A stretch of 64,000 nucleotides of DNA, from assembly GCA_039636795.1 (NCBI GenBank), contig CP143430.1, forward strand, positions 496,001 to 560,000. The letters are read 5' to 3'. The position numbers were made by a program, and so were the translations under genes. Source of the DNA: Micrococcaceae bacterium Sec5.1. GTDB taxonomy: Bacteria > Actinomycetota > Actinomycetes > Actinomycetales > Micrococcaceae. Within the stretch, counting starts at the first letter, position 1; the number at the start of each line of letters is the position of its first letter. Positions 21,367 to 54,645 of the stretch are shown here, in pieces. The notes under the pieces were generated by a model that had not been told where the DNA came from, made no database searches, and was given only the letters and a program-made list of their open reading frames with translations.

Positions 21367-21589
21367 AAAGTGTGCTTCAAAGTCTGGATCGTGATTCGCC
21401 ACGAGTCAAGACTTTTCTGAAAAACCTGATGACTTGGATCACAATTGAGGGCGTGTCCAATGGTTTTTTTGATGACCTTTACTGGTTGGCGTGGGTAGCA
21501 TGGAGGCAGCAGCGCCCTGTGAACGGCCTCACTGATCGGTGAATGACCTCACTGATGGGCGCAGCCCGCATTCCGTGGAAGGAGATGCC

Positions 21590-22306
21590 GTGCCGGACTC
21601 ACCGTTTGGCCCGTCGTTCTCGATGCTGCGCCCAGTCAGGGGCGGCAACGCGTTCGAAGAGACCATCGAACACATCCTGCAGACCATCAAGCTGGGGATC
21701 TTCGCTCCCGCCGAAAAACTGCCGCCTGAACGCGAACTGGCCGAACAATTAGGTGTCAGCCGCGCCACGCTTCGGGATGCGTTGGGGGAGTTGCAGAGCG
21801 CCGGCTATTTGGAAGTCCAGCGCGGCCGGTACGGCGGTACGTATGTCTCCACAACGGCAGTCCAGCGCCAGCCGGACCAAGGGCCGCTCGACCCCGCCGA
21901 GGTGGAGGACGTCCTGCTCTTCAGGTCCATCATCGAGCCTGCCGCTGCTTCTTTGGCCGCCAAAGCGGACCTATCCGCGGCTGCCCGGAGGCACCTGCAG
22001 GTTTGCCTCTCCGAAGTGAGCGCTTCCCCCGCCGTGGGCTACCGACCCCGCGATGCCCGGTTCCATATCGCCGTCGCCGAATTGTCCGGCTCCGCAAGCT
22101 TGGTGGGCGCCGTGGCCGAAACACGATCCAGGCTCAACGAACTCCTGGACCGGATCCCCTTGCTCAGCACCAACCTCGAGCACGCCAACGAACAACACGC
22201 CGAGATCGCCGAGGCTATCCTGCGCGGCGATGCCCCCGCCGCCGAACGGGCCACCATCGAACACCTGGAGGGAACGGCTTCACTGCTGCGCGGCTTCCTC
22301 GCCTGA
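21590..22306 (+). CDS. FadR/GntR family transcriptional regulator
   Basis: A 238-residue regulator starting at GTG 21590 (VPDSPFGPSF), five bases after a strong GGAAGGAG site; an upstream GTG start is less likely. The GntR winged helix covers about residues 20-85 (LPPERELAEQLGVSRATLRD, then GGTYVS). An FCD-type all-alpha ligand domain follows (about 100-235). It is divergent from the gamma-glutamyl operon and is its probable regulator. A 32-bp repeat array begins one base after its stop codon. Confidence 0.9.
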   Translation: MPDSPFGPSFSMLRPVRGGNAFEETIEHILQTIKLGIFAPAEKLPPERELAEQLGVSRATLRDALGELQSAGYLEVQRGRYGGTYVSTTAVQRQPDQGPLDPAEVEDVLLFRSIIEPAAASLAAKADLSAAARRHLQVCLSEVSASPAVGYRPRDARFHIAVAELSGSASLVGAVAETRSRLNELLDRIPLLSTNLEHANEQHAEIAEAILRGDAPAAERATIEHLEGTASLLRGFLA

Positions 22307-22307
22307 C

Positions 22308-22455
22308 GTTCTCTCACGTCCTGCTGCTTTTTGGCGATCGTTCTCTCACGTCCTGCTGCTTTTTGAGCATTGTTCTCTCACGTCCTGCTGCTTTTTGAGC
22401 ATTGTTCTCTCGGGTCCTGCGGGTTCTTGGGGATTGTTCCTTCAGGTCCATGCCG
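22308..22455 (+). repeat. 32-bp tandem repeat array I, 3' of the FadR-type gene
   Basis: Four 32-bp units begin at 22308, 22340, 22372 and 22404, followed by a degenerate partial unit at 22436. Units 1-3 begin GTTCTCTCACGTCCTGCTGC, followed by a TTTTTG stretch, and differ only in their last six bases (GCGATC or AGCATT). Unit 4 is diverged. The array starts one base after the regulator's stop codon and is in the same orientation as that gene. Confidence 0.9.
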
Positions 22456-22535
22456 CCGCGGCCGAATCACAGCGAGGCCGAATCACGGCGCAATATGGTT
22501 GAGCCTTTGTCATGGGGCTGACTAGTGTTGGACAC

Positions 22536-23357
22536 ATGCGCGAACTCCAGGCCAAGATCATCGAGGAAATGGGCGTCCAGCCCCGGATCAATCCCCAAGA
22601 GGAGGTCCGCAAACGGGTCACGTTCCTGAAAGAATATGTAAAAGCCACGGGCACGAACGGTTTTGTGCTCGGCATCTCCGGTGGGCTTGATTCCACTCTT
22701 GCCGGCCGGTTGGCGCAGCTGGCAGTCGAGGAACTGGAAGCTGAAGGCGTTAACGCGAACTTCGTCGCGATGCGTCTCCCCTACGGCATCCAGCACGACG
22801 AAGACGACGCCCAAGCCGCCTTGGACTTCATCAAGGCCAAAAACGAGCGGACCTTCAACATCTCCCGCGCAGTGGACGGATTCGAGGAAGAGTTCGAGAA
22901 AGCCACCGGCGCTGAAATCTCCGACTTCCACAAGGGCAACACCAAGGCCCGCGCACGCATGGTTGCCCAGTATGCACTGGCCGGCGAACACAATTACTTG
23001 GTCATCGGCACAGACCACGGCGCCGAGTCCGTCACAGGTTTCTTCACCAAATATGGCGACGGCGGTGCGGACATCCTGCCGCTGTTCGGCCTGAACAAGC
23101 GCCAGAACCGCGAACTTTTGGCCGAACTTGGCGCTTCCGCACGGCTTTGGCAGAAGGTGCCCACGGCTGACCTCCTGGACGACAAGCCGGGCCGCACCGA
23201 CGAAGACGAGCTCGGAGTCACGTACGACCAAATCGACGACTACCTTGAAGGCCGCGAAGTTCCCGAGGGCGTCGCGGAAATCATCGAGCAGAAGTACCTC
23301 CGTACGCGCCACAAGCGCACGGTGCCGGTCACCCTCTTCGATACCTGGTGGAAATAA
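22536..23357 (+). CDS. nadE: NH3-dependent NAD+ synthetase
   Basis: A 273-residue NAD synthetase that converts nicotinic acid adenine dinucleotide, ATP and ammonia to NAD+. The N-terminus ([20 protein letters not shown]) aligns with E. coli NadE, which sets the start at 22536; an upstream ATG at 22512 is possible. The ATP pyrophosphatase loop SGGLDS lies at 48-53. GTDHGAE and the C-terminal [17 protein letters not shown] are also characteristic. It has no glutaminase domain, so free ammonia is the donor. 32-bp repeat arrays lie on both sides. Confidence 0.95.
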
Positions 23358-23363
23358 CTCCCG

Positions 23364-23490
23364 GATCCTCTCGCGCATCCAAGGGTTTTTTGGCGATCGT
23401 TCTCTCACGTCCAACGGGATTTTGGCGATCGTTCTCTCATGTCCAAACGGCTTTTGGCCATCGGTCTCTCACCTCCCACAGGCTTCGACG
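23364..23490 (+). repeat. 32-bp tandem repeat array II, 3' of nadE
   Basis: Two well-kept 32-bp units (from about 23399 and 23431) are flanked by one diverged unit on each side. The good units begin GTTCTCTCACGTCC or GTTCTCTCATGTCC and end in TTTTGGCGATC or TTTTGGCCATC. The array starts within ten bases of the nadE stop codon and is in the same orientation as nadE. Confidence 0.8.
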
Positions 23491-23708
23491 CCCATCGCGG
23501 TGACCCTGGCCTACTCCGCTTAGTACTCGAAGAAGTCCTCTACTTTTGTTTGGTGGCAAGAAGACGTTGGCTTCACCCAGGAACTCGACCTCAACCTTCA
23601 CCGCTCGTTTTCGGCCAGGGCCTTCTCATCCCAGGCCTACTACTCGCAGTGAGTGCCGACGTCGGACTTTACCGACGGCGGCCATCCCGCCGTCGAGCAG
23701 GACGTAAC
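23491..23708. other. Gene-free stretch between two repeat arrays
   Basis: About 220 bp without a convincing gene. One plus-strand frame reads WWQEDVGFTQELDLNLHRSF and ends AFSSQAYYSQ before a stop at about 23652, preceded in frame by another stop near 23523. It could be a decayed gene 3' end. No family is recognised. Confidence 0.4.
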
Positions 23709-23921
23709 GAGCAACCGCCCGAAACGGGCAGGGCGTGAGAGAGCAACCGCCCGAAACGGGCAGGACGTGAGAGAGCAACCGCCCGAAACGGGCAGGACGT
23801 GAGAGAGCAACCGCCCGAAACGGGCAGGACGTGAGAGAGCAACCGCCCGAAACGGGCAGGACGTGAGAGCGCAACCGCCCGAAACCGGCAGGACGTGAGA
23901 GAGCAACCGCTGGGCAGGACC
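23709..23921 (-). repeat. 32-bp tandem repeat array III, 3' of the LacI-type gene
   Basis: Six full 32-bp units start at 23709, 23741, 23773, 23805, 23837 and 23869, and a partial seventh starts at 23901. On the plus strand units read GAGCAACCGCCCGAAACGGG, then CAGGACGTGAGA. Units 2-5 are identical, and units 1 and 6 differ by one or two bases. The GCCCG-AAA-CGGGC part forms a hairpin. Read on the minus strand each unit carries CTCTCACGTCC, so the array is oriented with the minus-strand LacI gene and abuts its stop codon. Confidence 0.95.
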
Positions 23922-24937
23922 TAGGCCGAGACCGGACCCGTGGAGCCGCGGACCGTGAGGTGGGTGGGCATGACTGAGCGGCTGCGGTTACCGCCCCCCG
24001 CCAACGGGTTCAGCTGGGCCAGCAGCATGGACACGGACACGCGGCCTGCTTGCTCAATGGGTGAGCTCATGGTGGTGAGCGGGGGATTGCAGAAATCAGC
24101 CCCGAAGATATCGTCACAGCCCACTATGCTCATATCTTCGGGCACGCGCAGGCCGCGCTCGCGAAGCCGCTGCAGCATGCCGATCGCTATGAGGTCGTTG
24201 AACACAATGCAGGCAGTCACTCCACTGTGGACTGCCGCATCGGCAGCTGCGGCGCCAGATTGCGTCTTCGGCGCAAAAGGGCCGAGGCTGCGAACGTCCA
24301 CCCCACGGTCCCCGGCGGCTTCGGACAATGCCACCCAGCGTCGGGCGCTCGATTGCGAGACTGCAGGTCCGGCTACGTAGGCCACGGATGTGTGCCCCAG
24401 CGAAATAAGGTGATCCAACGCCTGCGGCATGGCCGATGGAGTATCGATGATGACTGCAGGAACGCCGCCGACGTCCCGGTTCACCGTGACCATGGGCATC
24501 TTGGCGGCGGCAGCGGCGAGTGACTCGTCATTCAAGCGGGAGGCTGCAACGATCACGCCGTCAGCACTCTTGCGCAGCTGCTCGAGGGTGCTGGCCTCCA
24601 CTTCGTCGGATTCCTCGGTGTCCACCAGTAACTGTGTGTACCCGGCAGCCTTGAGTTGCAACTGCGTGCCGCGAATGAGATCGAAGTAGAACGGGTTGGT
24701 GATATCCGGCACCAGCACGCCCACTGCTCCGGTCCGGCCTGAGCTCAGCGCCTTTGCCTGGGAGTTTGGCGTGTAGTTAAGTTCGACGGCGGCAGCTTGG
24801 ATCCGCTGCCGGGTGCGGATATTGACGCGGTCCGGATTCGTGAGTGCCCGGGAGACAGTGGACGCCGCGACTCCGCAGAGGGCGGCAATGTCATGGATGG
24901 TGGCGGGCCGGTTTGATGCCACGGGTTGCGTCGCCAT
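23921..24937 (-). CDS. LacI family transcriptional regulator (uronate regulon, paralogue 1)
   Basis: A 338-residue LacI-type repressor. The helix-turn-helix covers about residues 13-60 (IHDIAALCGVAASTVSRALT) and the periplasmic binding protein-like domain about 70-335 (GVLVPDITNPFYFDLIRG, VGCDDIFGADF). It is divergent from the isomerase/oxidoreductase unit and has an operator between. It is closely similar to the second LacI regulator 10 kb away, sharing xPDITNPxxFDxIRG, AYVAGP and the DDIFGADF segment. The inducer is probably a uronate or uronate derivative, inferred from context. Confidence 0.9.
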   Translation of the reverse strand: MATQPVASNRPATIHDIAALCGVAASTVSRALTNPDRVNIRTRQRIQAAAVELNYTPNSQAKALSSGRTGAVGVLVPDITNPFYFDLIRGTQLQLKAAGYTQLLVDTEESDEVEASTLEQLRKSADGVIVAASRLNDESLAAAAAKMPMVTVNRDVGGVPAVIIDTPSAMPQALDHLISLGHTSVAYVAGPAVSQSSARRWVALSEAAGDRGVDVRSLGPFAPKTQSGAAAADAAVHSGVTACIVFNDLIAIGMLQRLRERGLRVPEDMSIVGCDDIFGADFCNPPLTTMSSPIEQAGRVSVSMLLAQLNPLAGGGNRSRSVMPTHLTVRGSTGPVSA

Positions 24938-25020
24938 GGGTGTTCCTCTCTGAACAACGGGTCATCCGGCTGTGATTGCTGCCACACCGTTTATCAAGAA
25001 TGCCACAGCATGGCAGATTA

Positions 25021-25059
25021 TGGCAATCGGTTGTCATGAGGATGCCAAGTTGGCTAAAC
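25021..25059 (+). promoter_or_regulatory. LacI operator overlapping promoter of the isomerase/oxidoreductase unit
   Basis: The dyad TGGCAATCGGTTGTCA (25021-25036) contains TTGTCA (25031-25036) as a probable -35. CTAAAC follows 17 bp later (25054-25059) as a weak -10. The same operator/-35 overlap recurs at three other sites in this cluster. Confidence 0.7.
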
Positions 25060-25149
25060 TCAGGGGACAACACCGCCTGTGAACTATGTCACCGCACCCC
25101 TGCGGCGGCGTCAGGAACAAGCCGCCACAGGCACTATCTAGGAGATTTC

Positions 25150-25995
25150 GTGACTCAACCCAATGCCGTGTGGAGCCTGTCCGGCTTCGGTGATGAGATA
25201 GACCCCGATCCCGCAGTCCAGGCCGCTGTACTCCTGGCCCTGGGCGCCAGCCACATCGAAGTCCGCAGCGCCTGGGACGTCAACGTGTCCGAACTCGAAA
25301 AGGAAGCAGTAGAGCGACTCAAGGGGATTTTTGACGAAAAAGGCCTCAAAATCTCAGCTGTTGCCAGCCCCATAGGCAAGGTGGACGTCAGCCTTCCCGT
25401 GGAGCATGAGGTCAACCGGCTCCGCCAGATCATCTCCGTGGCCAAGGGCCTTGACGCCAAGTACGTCCGGATCTTCTCCTTCTACCGCGCGGAAGGCCAG
25501 AGCCAGGAAGAAATCCGGGATGACGTAATAGAACGCATGAGGGCATTGGCCGCAGAGGCTGAAGCCAGTGGAATCGTCCTGCTCCACGAAAACGAAAAAG
25601 GCATCTACGGCGATACGCCCGAGCGGGTCCTGGACATCATGGAGACTGTGGCCTCCCCGGCACTCCGCGCGGCGTGGGATAACGCCAACTTCGTACAGGT
25701 AGGCGTCAAGCCCTACACCGAGGGCTATGCCATGCTGCGTCCGTACCTTGAGTACTTGCAGGTAAAGGATGCCCTGGCCGATACGGGTGAAGTGGTTCCT
25801 GCCGGGCAGGGCGACGGCGAACTTGATGCCACCATTGCCGCACTCCAGGCCGACGGCTTCACAGGCTTCGCCTCCCTGGAGCCGCACCTCGACAACGCAC
25901 ACGAGCTGGGCGGGTACTCCGGACCCGTAGCCTTCGGCATCGCCGCGCGGGCTTTCGCAGCCCTGGCAGCCAGGAATGGCGTCGACCTGGTCTGA
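25150..25995 (+). CDS. Sugar phosphate isomerase/epimerase (TIM barrel, xylose isomerase-like)
   Basis: A 281-residue AP endonuclease 2/xylose isomerase-like TIM-barrel protein. The GTG start at 25150 follows AGGAGATTTC. Typical strand ends with metal-ligand residues are seen: HIEVRSAWD, VRIFSFYR, LLHENEKGIYGD, AAWDNANFVQ, YLQVKDA and ASLEPHLD. These enzymes epimerise or isomerise sugars or their keto derivatives with a divalent metal. It pairs with the Gfo/Idh/MocA oxidoreductase 51 bp downstream. The substrate is unknown. Confidence 0.85.
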   Translation: MTQPNAVWSLSGFGDEIDPDPAVQAAVLLALGASHIEVRSAWDVNVSELEKEAVERLKGIFDEKGLKISAVASPIGKVDVSLPVEHEVNRLRQIISVAKGLDAKYVRIFSFYRAEGQSQEEIRDDVIERMRALAAEAEASGIVLLHENEKGIYGDTPERVLDIMETVASPALRAAWDNANFVQVGVKPYTEGYAMLRPYLEYLQVKDALADTGEVVPAGQGDGELDATIAALQADGFTGFASLEPHLDNAHELGGYSGPVAFGIAARAFAALAARNGVDLV

Positions 25996-45052: not shown

Positions 45053-46132
45053 ATGTCTCCCGGTGCACCATCAAGCAGGCCACCCGTTATGGGGGATGTA
45101 GCCAAGTTGGCCGGGGTCTCGCACCAGACCGTTTCCCGTGTCTTGAACAACCACCCCAACGTCAGCGGGAAGACCAAGGAACGCGTGGAATCGGCCATCG
45201 CCAGCCTTGGCTACCGGCGTAACACCGCAGCCCGCAGCCTGGTGACGCGGCGCTCCCGGACCATAGGCGTGCTGGCCTGCGAAACTGGCCAGTACGGACC
45301 CGCGAATACGTTGCTGGGAGTCGAACAGGCAGGCCGGGAAGCAGGCTATTTCGTCAGCATCGCCAACCTCCGCGAAGTAACGGGCGACAGCATCAACGAC
45401 GCCATCACCCATTTTCGCAACCAGTCCGTGGAGGGGGTGGTCATCCTTGTCCCGCATCCGGATGTCCTGGCAGCCCTCCGCGACGTCGCCGTCCCGTTTC
45501 CCATGGTGGCCGTGGGCGCCGGAACCGGGAACCAACTGACGGGTGCTTCACTGAACCAGCGGTTGGGAGCGCGGTTGGCGGTGGAACATCTCATCGGGCT
45601 CGGACACCGCCACATCGGACACATTTCCGGTCCGCCCCACTGGATCGACGCGGCTGAGCGCATCAAGGGATGGCAGGAGGCACTCGGCAACGCCGGCTTG
45701 GAGGCCGACGTTCTCCTCCAAGGGGGATGGGACGCCGCCTCGGGATACGAAGCAGGCCTGGCGCTCATTGAACAGCGCAAACCAGACGATCAGCGCAAAC
45801 CAGACGATCAGCCCACTATCACCGCCGTCTTCGTCGCGAACGACCAAATGGCGGTGGGAGTCCTTCGCGCCCTGCAGGAAGCTGGGTTGCGAGTTCCGGA
45901 AGACATCAGCGTGGTGGGATACGACGATCAGCCTGAAGCTGCGTTCTTCCTGCCGCCACTGACCACCATCAAACAGGACTTTGAAGAACTCGGCCGCCGT
46001 TGCATGTCCGCGGTACTCCATCAGTTGGAAAACGAGCCAGGCAGTGAGGAACAGATCGTCAATCCCAAGTTGGTTGTCCGTTCCACCACCGCGGCACCTG
46101 CGCTTCGCCCGGCTCCGTCCCCACTAAACTAG
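45053..46132 (+). CDS. LacI family transcriptional regulator of the monosaccharide importer
   Basis: A 359-residue LacI-type regulator. The helix-turn-helix is at about 12-58 (MGDVAKLAGVSHQTVSRVLN). The sugar-binding domain includes VEGVVILVPHP, VFVANDQMAVGVL and SVVGYDDQPEAAFF. It lies directly after the importer genes and probably binds the two TGTGAACGCTAACAA sites. An exact 18-bp tandem duplication near residues 240-253 repeats QRKPDD in frame, lengthening a surface loop by six residues. pyrE follows after 5 bp. Confidence 0.9.
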   Translation: MSPGAPSSRPPVMGDVAKLAGVSHQTVSRVLNNHPNVSGKTKERVESAIASLGYRRNTAARSLVTRRSRTIGVLACETGQYGPANTLLGVEQAGREAGYFVSIANLREVTGDSINDAITHFRNQSVEGVVILVPHPDVLAALRDVAVPFPMVAVGAGTGNQLTGASLNQRLGARLAVEHLIGLGHRHIGHISGPPHWIDAAERIKGWQEALGNAGLEADVLLQGGWDAASGYEAGLALIEQRKPDDQRKPDDQPTITAVFVANDQMAVGVLRALQEAGLRVPEDISVVGYDDQPEAAFFLPPLTTIKQDFEELGRRCMSAVLHQLENEPGSEEQIVNPKLVVRSTTAAPALRPAPSPLN

Positions 46133-53361: not shown

Positions 53362-54645
53362 ATGAGCAACAACAATGGAGCGCCGCAGCCTCCGTACAAT
53401 CCCGACGGCGTGCCGCAGCCCCGCTACGACACCGGCCAGGAGCAGTATCGGCAGTATCAGCCGGGCCAGACGCAGTCTATGTATCAGCCGGAAGCGCAGT
53501 ACCAGCCGGAAGGGCAGTACCATCCGGAAGCGCAGGGGCAGGAGGGCCAAACTCAGGCTCTCCCCACACAGCCGGAAGTGACCCAGGCTTTCCCCGCGCA
53601 ACAATTGCCGACCCAGCAGGGTTACCCTGACGGCGAGTTCGCCGAAACGGTCCACCGCTACCCACAGACGCAGCAGGGTCAGCCCGGTTTCACCTCACCG
53701 GGCAGCGGCTACCCCGGCCAGCCTGGTTACCCCGGTCAACCTGGTTACCCTGGCCAGCCCGGCGGACCCAGCCAGGGCCCGGGTGACCACAACAAAAAGG
53801 CGCTGTTCCTGATCCTCGGCGGGGTCGCCGTCGTCGTGATCATTGCGCTGGTAGTCGTGTTCGCATGGTTGATTCCTTCGGTGACCAAGCCTGTGGCCGT
53901 AGAGAGTCCCGTGCCTTCGGCCAGTGCCTCCGACGAAGGCTCTGATGCAGCGTCCGAACCGTCCGCAGAGCCGTCTACGGAGCCGTCTGGCAATGCAACG
54001 GCCTCCTCCGAGATTCCGGAGGGTGCTATCCCGCTCCCCAGCGTGTGGGAAGAATTCGCCGGCCCAACCAATGTCCCGGCCGACGGCGATCCGCTGTTCA
54101 GCAAGTGGGTCACGGGCGAATCTTCCTTCCAGTACCTGGCCGAGTGGACCCATGACGAATCCTTCGGGATAACCAAGGACCCCACCACGGGTGAAGAAAT
54201 CCAGAAGAAGGCCCAAGGCACCGTGGAGGCGGACGGCGACGGCATTGCCCTCGCGTATGCGTTCTTCGCCGAGTCCGACGAAGGCAAGTTCGGCAAGGAT
54301 CCGAAAGAGATCAAGGCCGCGATCGAGGACATCGAGGCCCGGTACAAGGGCATGACCGCCACGGAACTGCCCCAGAACCTGGTGGGCCACAAGTGCACCT
54401 CGGACTTCAAGACCTCGATGCCAGAAATCCGCGAGTTCCGCCGGGGCGCAGCAGTGGTCATTGGCTTCACCTGCACCAACGCGCGTGGCGAAGAAATCCA
54501 GGCAGTCAACCTGTTCTCGGTGACCCCGTGGGGAACGCCGCAGATGCTCGGCGTTAGCGGGCACAAGACCTACTGGGATGCCCACCCCGGCCTGATGGAG
54601 CAGCTCGCCAACTCGTACCGCATCAACAAGTGGAAGATGGTCTAG
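53362..54645 (+). CDS. One-pass membrane protein with YQPEGQY/PGQPGYPG repeats
   Basis: A 427-residue protein whose start at 53362 (MSNNNGAPQP) follows AAAGGGCC. Residues 1-140 are Pro/Gln/Tyr-rich and disordered, with repeats of YQPE and YPGQPG. One membrane segment (about 150-172, LFLILGGVAVVVIIALVVVF) follows, then a Ser/Glu/Pro linker and an extracytoplasmic domain of about 210 residues containing two cysteines. The layout resembles actinobacterial cell-envelope proteins with cytoplasmic proline-rich tails. The function is unknown. Confidence 0.75.
   Translation: MSNNNGAPQPPYNPDGVPQPRYDTGQEQYRQYQPGQTQSMYQPEAQYQPEGQYHPEAQGQEGQTQALPTQPEVTQAFPAQQLPTQQGYPDGEFAETVHRYPQTQQGQPGFTSPGSGYPGQPGYPGQPGYPGQPGGPSQGPGDHNKKALFLILGGVAVVVIIALVVVFAWLIPSVTKPVAVESPVPSASASDEGSDAASEPSAEPSTEPSGNATASSEIPEGAIPLPSVWEEFAGPTNVPADGDPLFSKWVTGESSFQYLAEWTHDESFGITKDPTTGEEIQKKAQGTVEADGDGIALAYAFFAESDEGKFGKDPKEIKAAIEDIEARYKGMTATELPQNLVGHKCTSDFKTSMPEIREFRRGAAVVIGFTCTNARGEEIQAVNLFSVTPWGTPQMLGVSGHKTYWDAHPGLMEQLANSYRINKWKMV

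Follow-up and report, generated by a model that had tools for sequence, protein, structure and literature searches.

The window analysed here, a 64-kb stretch of DNA (bases 496001-560000 of one 5,426,886-base contig), contains three tandem arrays with a period of 32 bp, which are located next to a GntR/FCD (FadR-type) regulator gene (21575..22306, plus strand), the NAD synthase gene nadE (22536..23357, plus strand) and a LacI-type regulator gene (23921..24937, minus strand). Array 1 (22307..22449, plus strand) is opened by the TGA stop codon of the FadR-type gene (22304-22306) and its first core lies 3 nt past this codon; three exact cores (22310, 22342, 22374), one with two mismatches (22406) and a degenerate fifth recognised by eye (22438) are all 32 apart. 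Array 2 (23369..23476, plus strand) follows nadE, which ends in TAA, and includes a degenerate core seen by eye at 23369, 11 nt after the stop codon, an exact core at 23401 and cores with one mismatch each at 23433 and 23465. Array 3 (23699..23902, minus strand) opposes array 2, so that the two face each other as arms, and has cores at 23731, 23763, 23795, 23827, 23859 and 23891 (four exact and two with one mismatch), a degenerate inner copy near 23700, and a distance of 18 nt between its first core and the TAG of the LacI-type gene.

The period of 32 was recovered by TRF at 22308-22439 (4.1 copies), 23388-23485 (3.1 copies) and 23697-23910 (6.7 copies). The core TCTCTCACGTCC, at up to two mismatches, has 14 matches in the window, compared to a mean of 6.1 and a maximum of 12 in window shuffles, and 13 of the 14 are inside the three arrays (eight exact, four with one mismatch and one with two). 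The arrays and gene types reported by the first-pass annotation are thereby upheld, as is the orientation of all three arrays with the gene upstream. Its statement that every unit carries the core holds for the eight exact copies, whereas those at 22406, 23433, 23465, 23731 and 23859 differ and those at 22438 and 23369 are degenerate; a start within 0-10 nt of the stop codon is obtained only when the degenerate edges are counted, the real first-core distances being 3, 11 and 18 nt. Elsewhere in the window, TRF also marked short 18-bp tandem repeats at 45773-45812, 53481-53535 and 53707-53763, possibly inside coding sequence.

Unit structure and pitch

The 32-bp unit can be written approximately as CNGAYSY-TCNCTCACNTCC-(7 variable)-TT-(about 6 variable, ending in the next CNGAYSY), that is, a core of 12 bp with variable filler. 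The pitch corresponds to three DNA turns and varies unusually little, being exactly 32 in 317 of the 337 neighbouring core pairs that lie 20-50 apart. Units within one array resemble each other, with positions 32 apart linked, and the segments between neighbouring cores differ at no more than 3 of 15 positions in 165 of the 317 pairs; in another 78 pairs they differ at 8 or more of 15 (random mean 8.4) and the pitch is still 32. Spacing variants range from 30 to 36, plus one of 23, and are not 32 plus or minus one turn. The arrays show about 75 substitutions per spacing change (approximately 450 to 6 in the home genome and 1,036 to 14 in relatives), versus 7.4 in array-free spacers (3,731 substitutions and 503 gap openings inside BLAST alignments), a comparison that is rough as arrays also exchange sequence internally. 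No 10.7-bp A/T rhythm was detected within the unit (P=0.315), and a signature of helical wrapping was rejected on this ground. One array of a variant type (G032:C171:25981-26824) has approximately 26 units with the core TCCCGCACGTCC, in which two versions of the inter-core segment alternate.

Genome-wide census and distribution

Exact TCTCTCACGTCC has 57 matches in the home genome and none for the control, in which the motif is read backwards; the corresponding numbers are 78 and one for TCTCTCACATCC, and 126 and none for core pairs 32 apart at up to three mismatches. A weight matrix was built from 33 stretches of the home chromosome taken around core matches, and it identified 232 units in these stretches and none in a reversed control of 723,064 bases. 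With an array defined by two or more units, or by a single strong one, the stretches hold 77 arrays, a number in which arrays with strongly changed cores are under-counted since the stretches were picked for holding a core. The related loci consist of at least 120 stretches from a scan of a genome collection; the 80 titles listed are all Arthrobacter or Paenarthrobacter. Along the home chromosome, where dnaA is at base 394, array density peaks on the dnaA side (3, 15, 7, 7, 0, 0, 2, 5, 10, 13 and 15 arrays per successive 0.5 Mb), to which the origin crowding of core genes themselves may contribute.

The R-type core, at up to three mismatches, was found in 11 of 295 genomes of the family, including 10 of 24 from the own genus; outside the genus there was one single match, which is at background level because the controls total 8 matches over the 295 genomes. 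Order-wide, 6 of 396 genomes match, all from the own genus. The degenerate core TCNCTCACNTCC, at up to two mismatches, is present in 46 of 61 genomes of the genus, home included, with one control match in all, and the number of pattern matches per genome ranges from 0 to 162. Among the matches listed, the common forms of this core vary between genomes, and at the orthologous loci listed the position of the array is kept while the cores change. In a nadE tree of 60 genomes (G053 was omitted for its split gene), 12 of the 15 matchless genomes fall in one clade of 14. The gene end behind the PRA isomerase gene could be read in 56 genomes, 8 of which have an array exactly 3 nt after the TGA; the close relatives G033, G023, G060 and G041 have none there, and G022, G045 and G012 carry TCGCTCACCT-type units slightly further on. 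The arrays are dispensable, given that close relatives lack them at a shared gene end and that one clade is mostly without a match.

Placement relative to genes

Genes were called with a simple coding-score script, not an annotation pipeline. On this basis, 56 of the 77 home arrays follow a same-sense gene, 17 of them exactly 3 nt from the stop codon, and in the listed related loci 134 of 169 arrays are sense, 45 of them at exactly 3 nt (excluding duplicates, arrays less than 400 nt from the locus end and those with no upstream gene). Relative to expected counts based on random place and strand within the same spacer, starts at exactly 3 nt are strongly enriched, with 17 of 76 home arrays versus 1.3 expected and 48 of 173 arrays in the listed related loci versus 1.2 expected (here excluding duplicates and arrays that are not flanked by genes on both sides), and the same applies to starts within 18 nt of the stop codon (33 versus 8.6 expected in the home genome and 86 versus 19.7 in the listed relatives). 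The excess of sense arrays in any context is weak (55 versus 50.1 in the home genome and 135 versus 114.8 in the listed relatives) as either strand counts as sense where genes converge. In tandem spacers, 52 one-direction arrays are sense and 5 antisense, and when the second arms of plus-minus pairs are included all arrays amount to 87 sense and 38 antisense; past a folded stretch and at a distance above 40 nt from the stop codon, one-direction arrays are 10 sense and 0 antisense, and all arrays 21 and 24. Enrichment behind stop codons and a bias in orientation, the two properties on which the first-pass annotation had staked its proposal, are thus both present in the home genome and the related loci, and gene-oriented placement at the 3' end with a 32-bp pitch is supported far outside the window.

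Array-bearing spacers in the home genome are convergent, tandem and divergent in 19, 23 and 5 cases versus 12, 87 and 38 for array-free spacers, and those of the listed related loci in 51, 67 and 9 versus 38, 182 and 90. Promoters are avoided accordingly, with divergent spacers making up 5 of 47 (home) and 9 of 127 (related) array-bearing spacers versus 38 of 137 and 90 of 310 array-free ones. An array is often faced by a second one from across the spacer, and such paired arms are arranged as plus then minus, with only two home spacers showing minus then plus. A rule based on the replication strand was unconvincing (sense arrays 34 leading and 22 lagging, antisense 8 and 13, genes of the same stretches 176 and 150). 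At one locus, a DUF559 gene on the plus strand (L202:6199-6630) ends inside a minus-strand array, a reversed unit of which supplies its TGA.

The stop codon as part of the first unit

Among the 65 arrays that start at exactly 3 nt, the stop codon is TGA in 42, TAA in 20 and TAG in 3, while TAG accounts for 34% of the stops called overall. C precedes the stop codon in 57 of these 65 cases versus 50-51% of all called genes, and the same positions inside arrays mostly read C-S-G-A. As C followed by TGA or TAA matches this in-array sequence, the gene end completes the first unit, to which the stop codon contributes its GA or AA; behind TAG-ended genes the first unit often has its own CCGA or similar a few bases on (by eye). 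A rather improbable reading is that the arrays are a genus-wide punctuation of the chromosome, in which a putative DNA-reading factor includes the stop codon in its recognition site. The last base of the final codon and the TGA or TAA would then form the left border of that first 32-bp unit, gene end and array start would amount to one composite signal, and this signal would have been copied to dozens of gene ends and held in helix phase.

A putative protein-binding boundary repeat

The first-pass annotation had suggested a transcript-end element or a protein-binding array, and the sequence data fit either putative function. Our tentative preference, which we hold with less than even confidence, is that the arrays are a genus-specific family of dispersed, REP-like boundary repeats with putative sites for a cooperatively binding DNA protein. 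Each unit would be the site for one sequence-specific DNA-binding protein, the molecules would bind cooperatively, spaced at three turns along one face of the helix, and the bound array could insulate adjacent transcription units from each other as a polar block or anchor, with back-up termination or the holding of supercoils between converging genes as possible roles. The copies probably date from the early history of the genus and have since diverged in situ, homogenising within each array. We prefer a DNA-binding protein to an RNA element or a functionless mobile repeat because of the pitch, the stop-overlapping motif and the orientation.

Several observations speak against this reading. 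A tight block 3 nt past the stop codon would be expected to stall RNA polymerase short of that codon and yield non-stop mRNA, a consequence that would be escaped if the enzyme can pass the first units. A 10.7-bp A/T rhythm is absent from the unit, the spacing variants are not one turn off, and the constant pitch could partly reflect tandem copying. The sense bias in any context is small, the tandem-gene bias is 87:38 once second arms are counted, and the arrays are dispensable.

Alternative explanations

One alternative places the function in the RNA, with the arrays serving as Rho-loading, rut-like tracts that begin where ribosomes leave, so that the C-rich, G-poor and weakly folded 3' tail captures Rho and provides either the only termination signal or a reserve behind an intrinsic terminator. 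This agrees with the composition of the array sense strand (C 42%, G 18%, T 28%, A 12%, with C 31% and G 29% in array-free 3' flanks) and with the 70 nt after the stop codon, where the C-G excess is 0.21 versus 0.03 in array-free cases, YC dinucleotides number 19.6 versus 11.2 and the median folding energy is -15.7 versus -22.3 kcal/mol (n=90 versus 392 throughout). It also agrees with the 52:5 orientation of one-direction arrays and with a terminator scan of 21500-25200, in which nothing terminator-like appeared between the three window genes and the single match obtained lay outside the arrays (25001-25015, minus strand; 2.9 expected). The excess of C over G resides mainly in the core, however, and inter-core segments are near balance (C 37% and G 30% in the home genome, C 36% and G 32% in relatives), C exceeding G in 94 and G exceeding C in 100 of 207 units from relatives, and in 44 and 34 of 85 units from the home genome; as these segments are not G-poor, the signal is one of sequence and not of bulk composition. 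To our knowledge, Rho needs neither a fixed 32-nt pitch nor an invariant A and T in the core, and we know it as near-universal, while the arrays are absent from most of one clade. We consider this explanation rather unlikely.

An equally unlikely explanation, in our judgement, is that the arrays are selfish dispersed repeats of MITE or REP type without host function, inserted after CTRA or CCRA by a putative enzyme and purged by selection except behind genes. In its favour are a copy number that is patchy across the genus (0 to 162 pattern matches), an orthologous gene end that is occupied in some genomes and empty in others, the scarcity of arrays in divergent spacers and the junction preference for CTGA or CTAA. 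Of the features of a MITE, inverted arms occur in only part of the sites, and both filled and empty sites are seen. Further support comes from an IS3-type element of approximately 1.3 kb, encoding an HTH_Tnp_1 protein and an rve transposase, which is present in the home genome in five full copies, all identical (L184 at 761152, L189 at 1079505, L190 at 1483286, L194 at 3145584 and L208 at 5041571), and has elsewhere one match of 45 residues at 64%. Each of the five is found within 50 nt of an array core and two sit in an array, and the arrays therefore also serve as landing sites; the element is placed as if seeking arrays. Against this explanation, neither the 52:5 sense bias between tandem genes nor the ten-fold constancy of the pitch is readily given by selection alone. 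The Y1/RAYT transposase (PF01797) was absent from 23 of 23 genus genomes (controls were positive in 5 of 14), which led us to reject RAYT as mobiliser, and with window arrays 2 and 3 as queries there was no phage match and only 2 matches in 72,556 plasmid records, both over 1 Mb and from one strain. Two other candidates were rejected as well: a DUF559 endonuclease, considered as one such gene (4494198-4494629) ends inside an array, is matched in 22 of 23 genomes irrespective of whether they carry arrays, and the 20 proteins scanned beside or between arrays as potential cargo comprised 2 from an insertion sequence, 1 DUF559 protein and otherwise ordinary enzyme, transport or regulator families.

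Hairpin elements, in which the unit or the paired arms would form intrinsic terminators or stable RNA 3' structures, are very unlikely. Some converging arms do meet in a short palindrome (e.g. 4791857 and 5392500 in the home genome, by eye), but tested stem positions showed no covariation in 226 home and 494 related units, the RNA of array 1 folded no better than its shuffles (z=0.72) and the arm middles had a similarity of 0.53 versus 0.49 for random (65 pairs), on which grounds we set this reading aside. Rfam gave no matches up to E=1 in 21500-25200. A weak test for a stem plus T-tract was positive after 4 of 108 stop-adjacent arrays and 17 of 295 array-free stops, and in 6 of 51 cases for arrays 21-250 nt away. 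Hairpins of -20 kcal/mol or better precede the distant arrays at a frequency of 0.61 versus 0.64 for array-free gene ends; in a good part of 40 of the 51 distant cases a strong hairpin stands just before the array (L194, L195, L197, L199, L210, L066, L076, L131 and others), an observation made by eye and not a count. Also by eye, the nadE relatives L215, L216, L218, L219 and L217 have an array soon after a hairpin with a T-rich tail, and L220, L221 and L223 have a similar hairpin without an array. As some arrays thus lie beyond what looks like an intrinsic terminator, the arrays are not just a standard component of mRNA 3' ends. A strong hairpin common to L087 and L217 behind different genes is possibly another dispersed 3' element. 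Finally, although units within an array are alike, as expected of an ordinary VNTR slippage product placed by chance, the genome-wide common core and pitch, the lock to the stop codon and the orientation bias refute this possibility for practical purposes.

Comparison with known systems

The arrays differ from intrinsic terminators in having no GC hairpin and U tract (window scan; z=0.72 for array 1), and from CRISPR in a core of only 12 bp and in neighbouring inter-core segments that are often alike (165 of 317). The rut sites of Rho are sense-strand, C-rich, G-poor and weakly folded and start where translation ends; the sense RNA of the arrays is likewise richer in C than in G and weakly structured, though the inter-core segments alone hardly so, and differs in its fixed pitch, its invariant non-C positions and its restriction to one genus. 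Sal-box arrays behind rRNA genes are tandem, oriented short sites read by the polar DNA-binding protein TTF-I, and the present arrays are similarly tandem, oriented and directly behind a transcription unit, but they occur behind many protein-coding genes in a bacterial genus and their reader protein is only putative.

The MIRU of mycobacteria are direct intergenic repeats with a unit of approximately 40-100 bp that are oriented with neighbouring genes, can overlap stop codons and vary in copy number. The arrays share with them direct repetition, intergenic location, actinobacterial hosts, gene orientation (52:5 for one-direction arrays between tandem genes), stop overlap and variable copy number, and differ in a unit of 32 bp made of a 12-bp core with variable filler. 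REP/BIME elements of enterobacteria and others are dispersed intergenic repeats with a palindromic unit, associated with RAYT, which occupy gene 3' ends, at times within a few nt of the stop codon, as well as the spacers of converging genes, and are targets of insertion sequences. The arrays resemble them in being intergenic at gene 3' ends, between converging genes and landing sites for insertion sequences, and differ in having neither a palindromic unit nor a Y1/RAYT gene and in consisting of direct tandem units, at a fixed 32-bp pitch, oriented with the gene. If our preferred reading is true, the arrays would represent a second route, without the RAYT enzyme, to REP-like repeats at gene ends, following a tighter rule than the REPs known to us (3 nt from the stop codon, on the gene strand and at a 32-bp pitch) and suggesting that a common soil genus has a novel factor for recognising the ends of genes.
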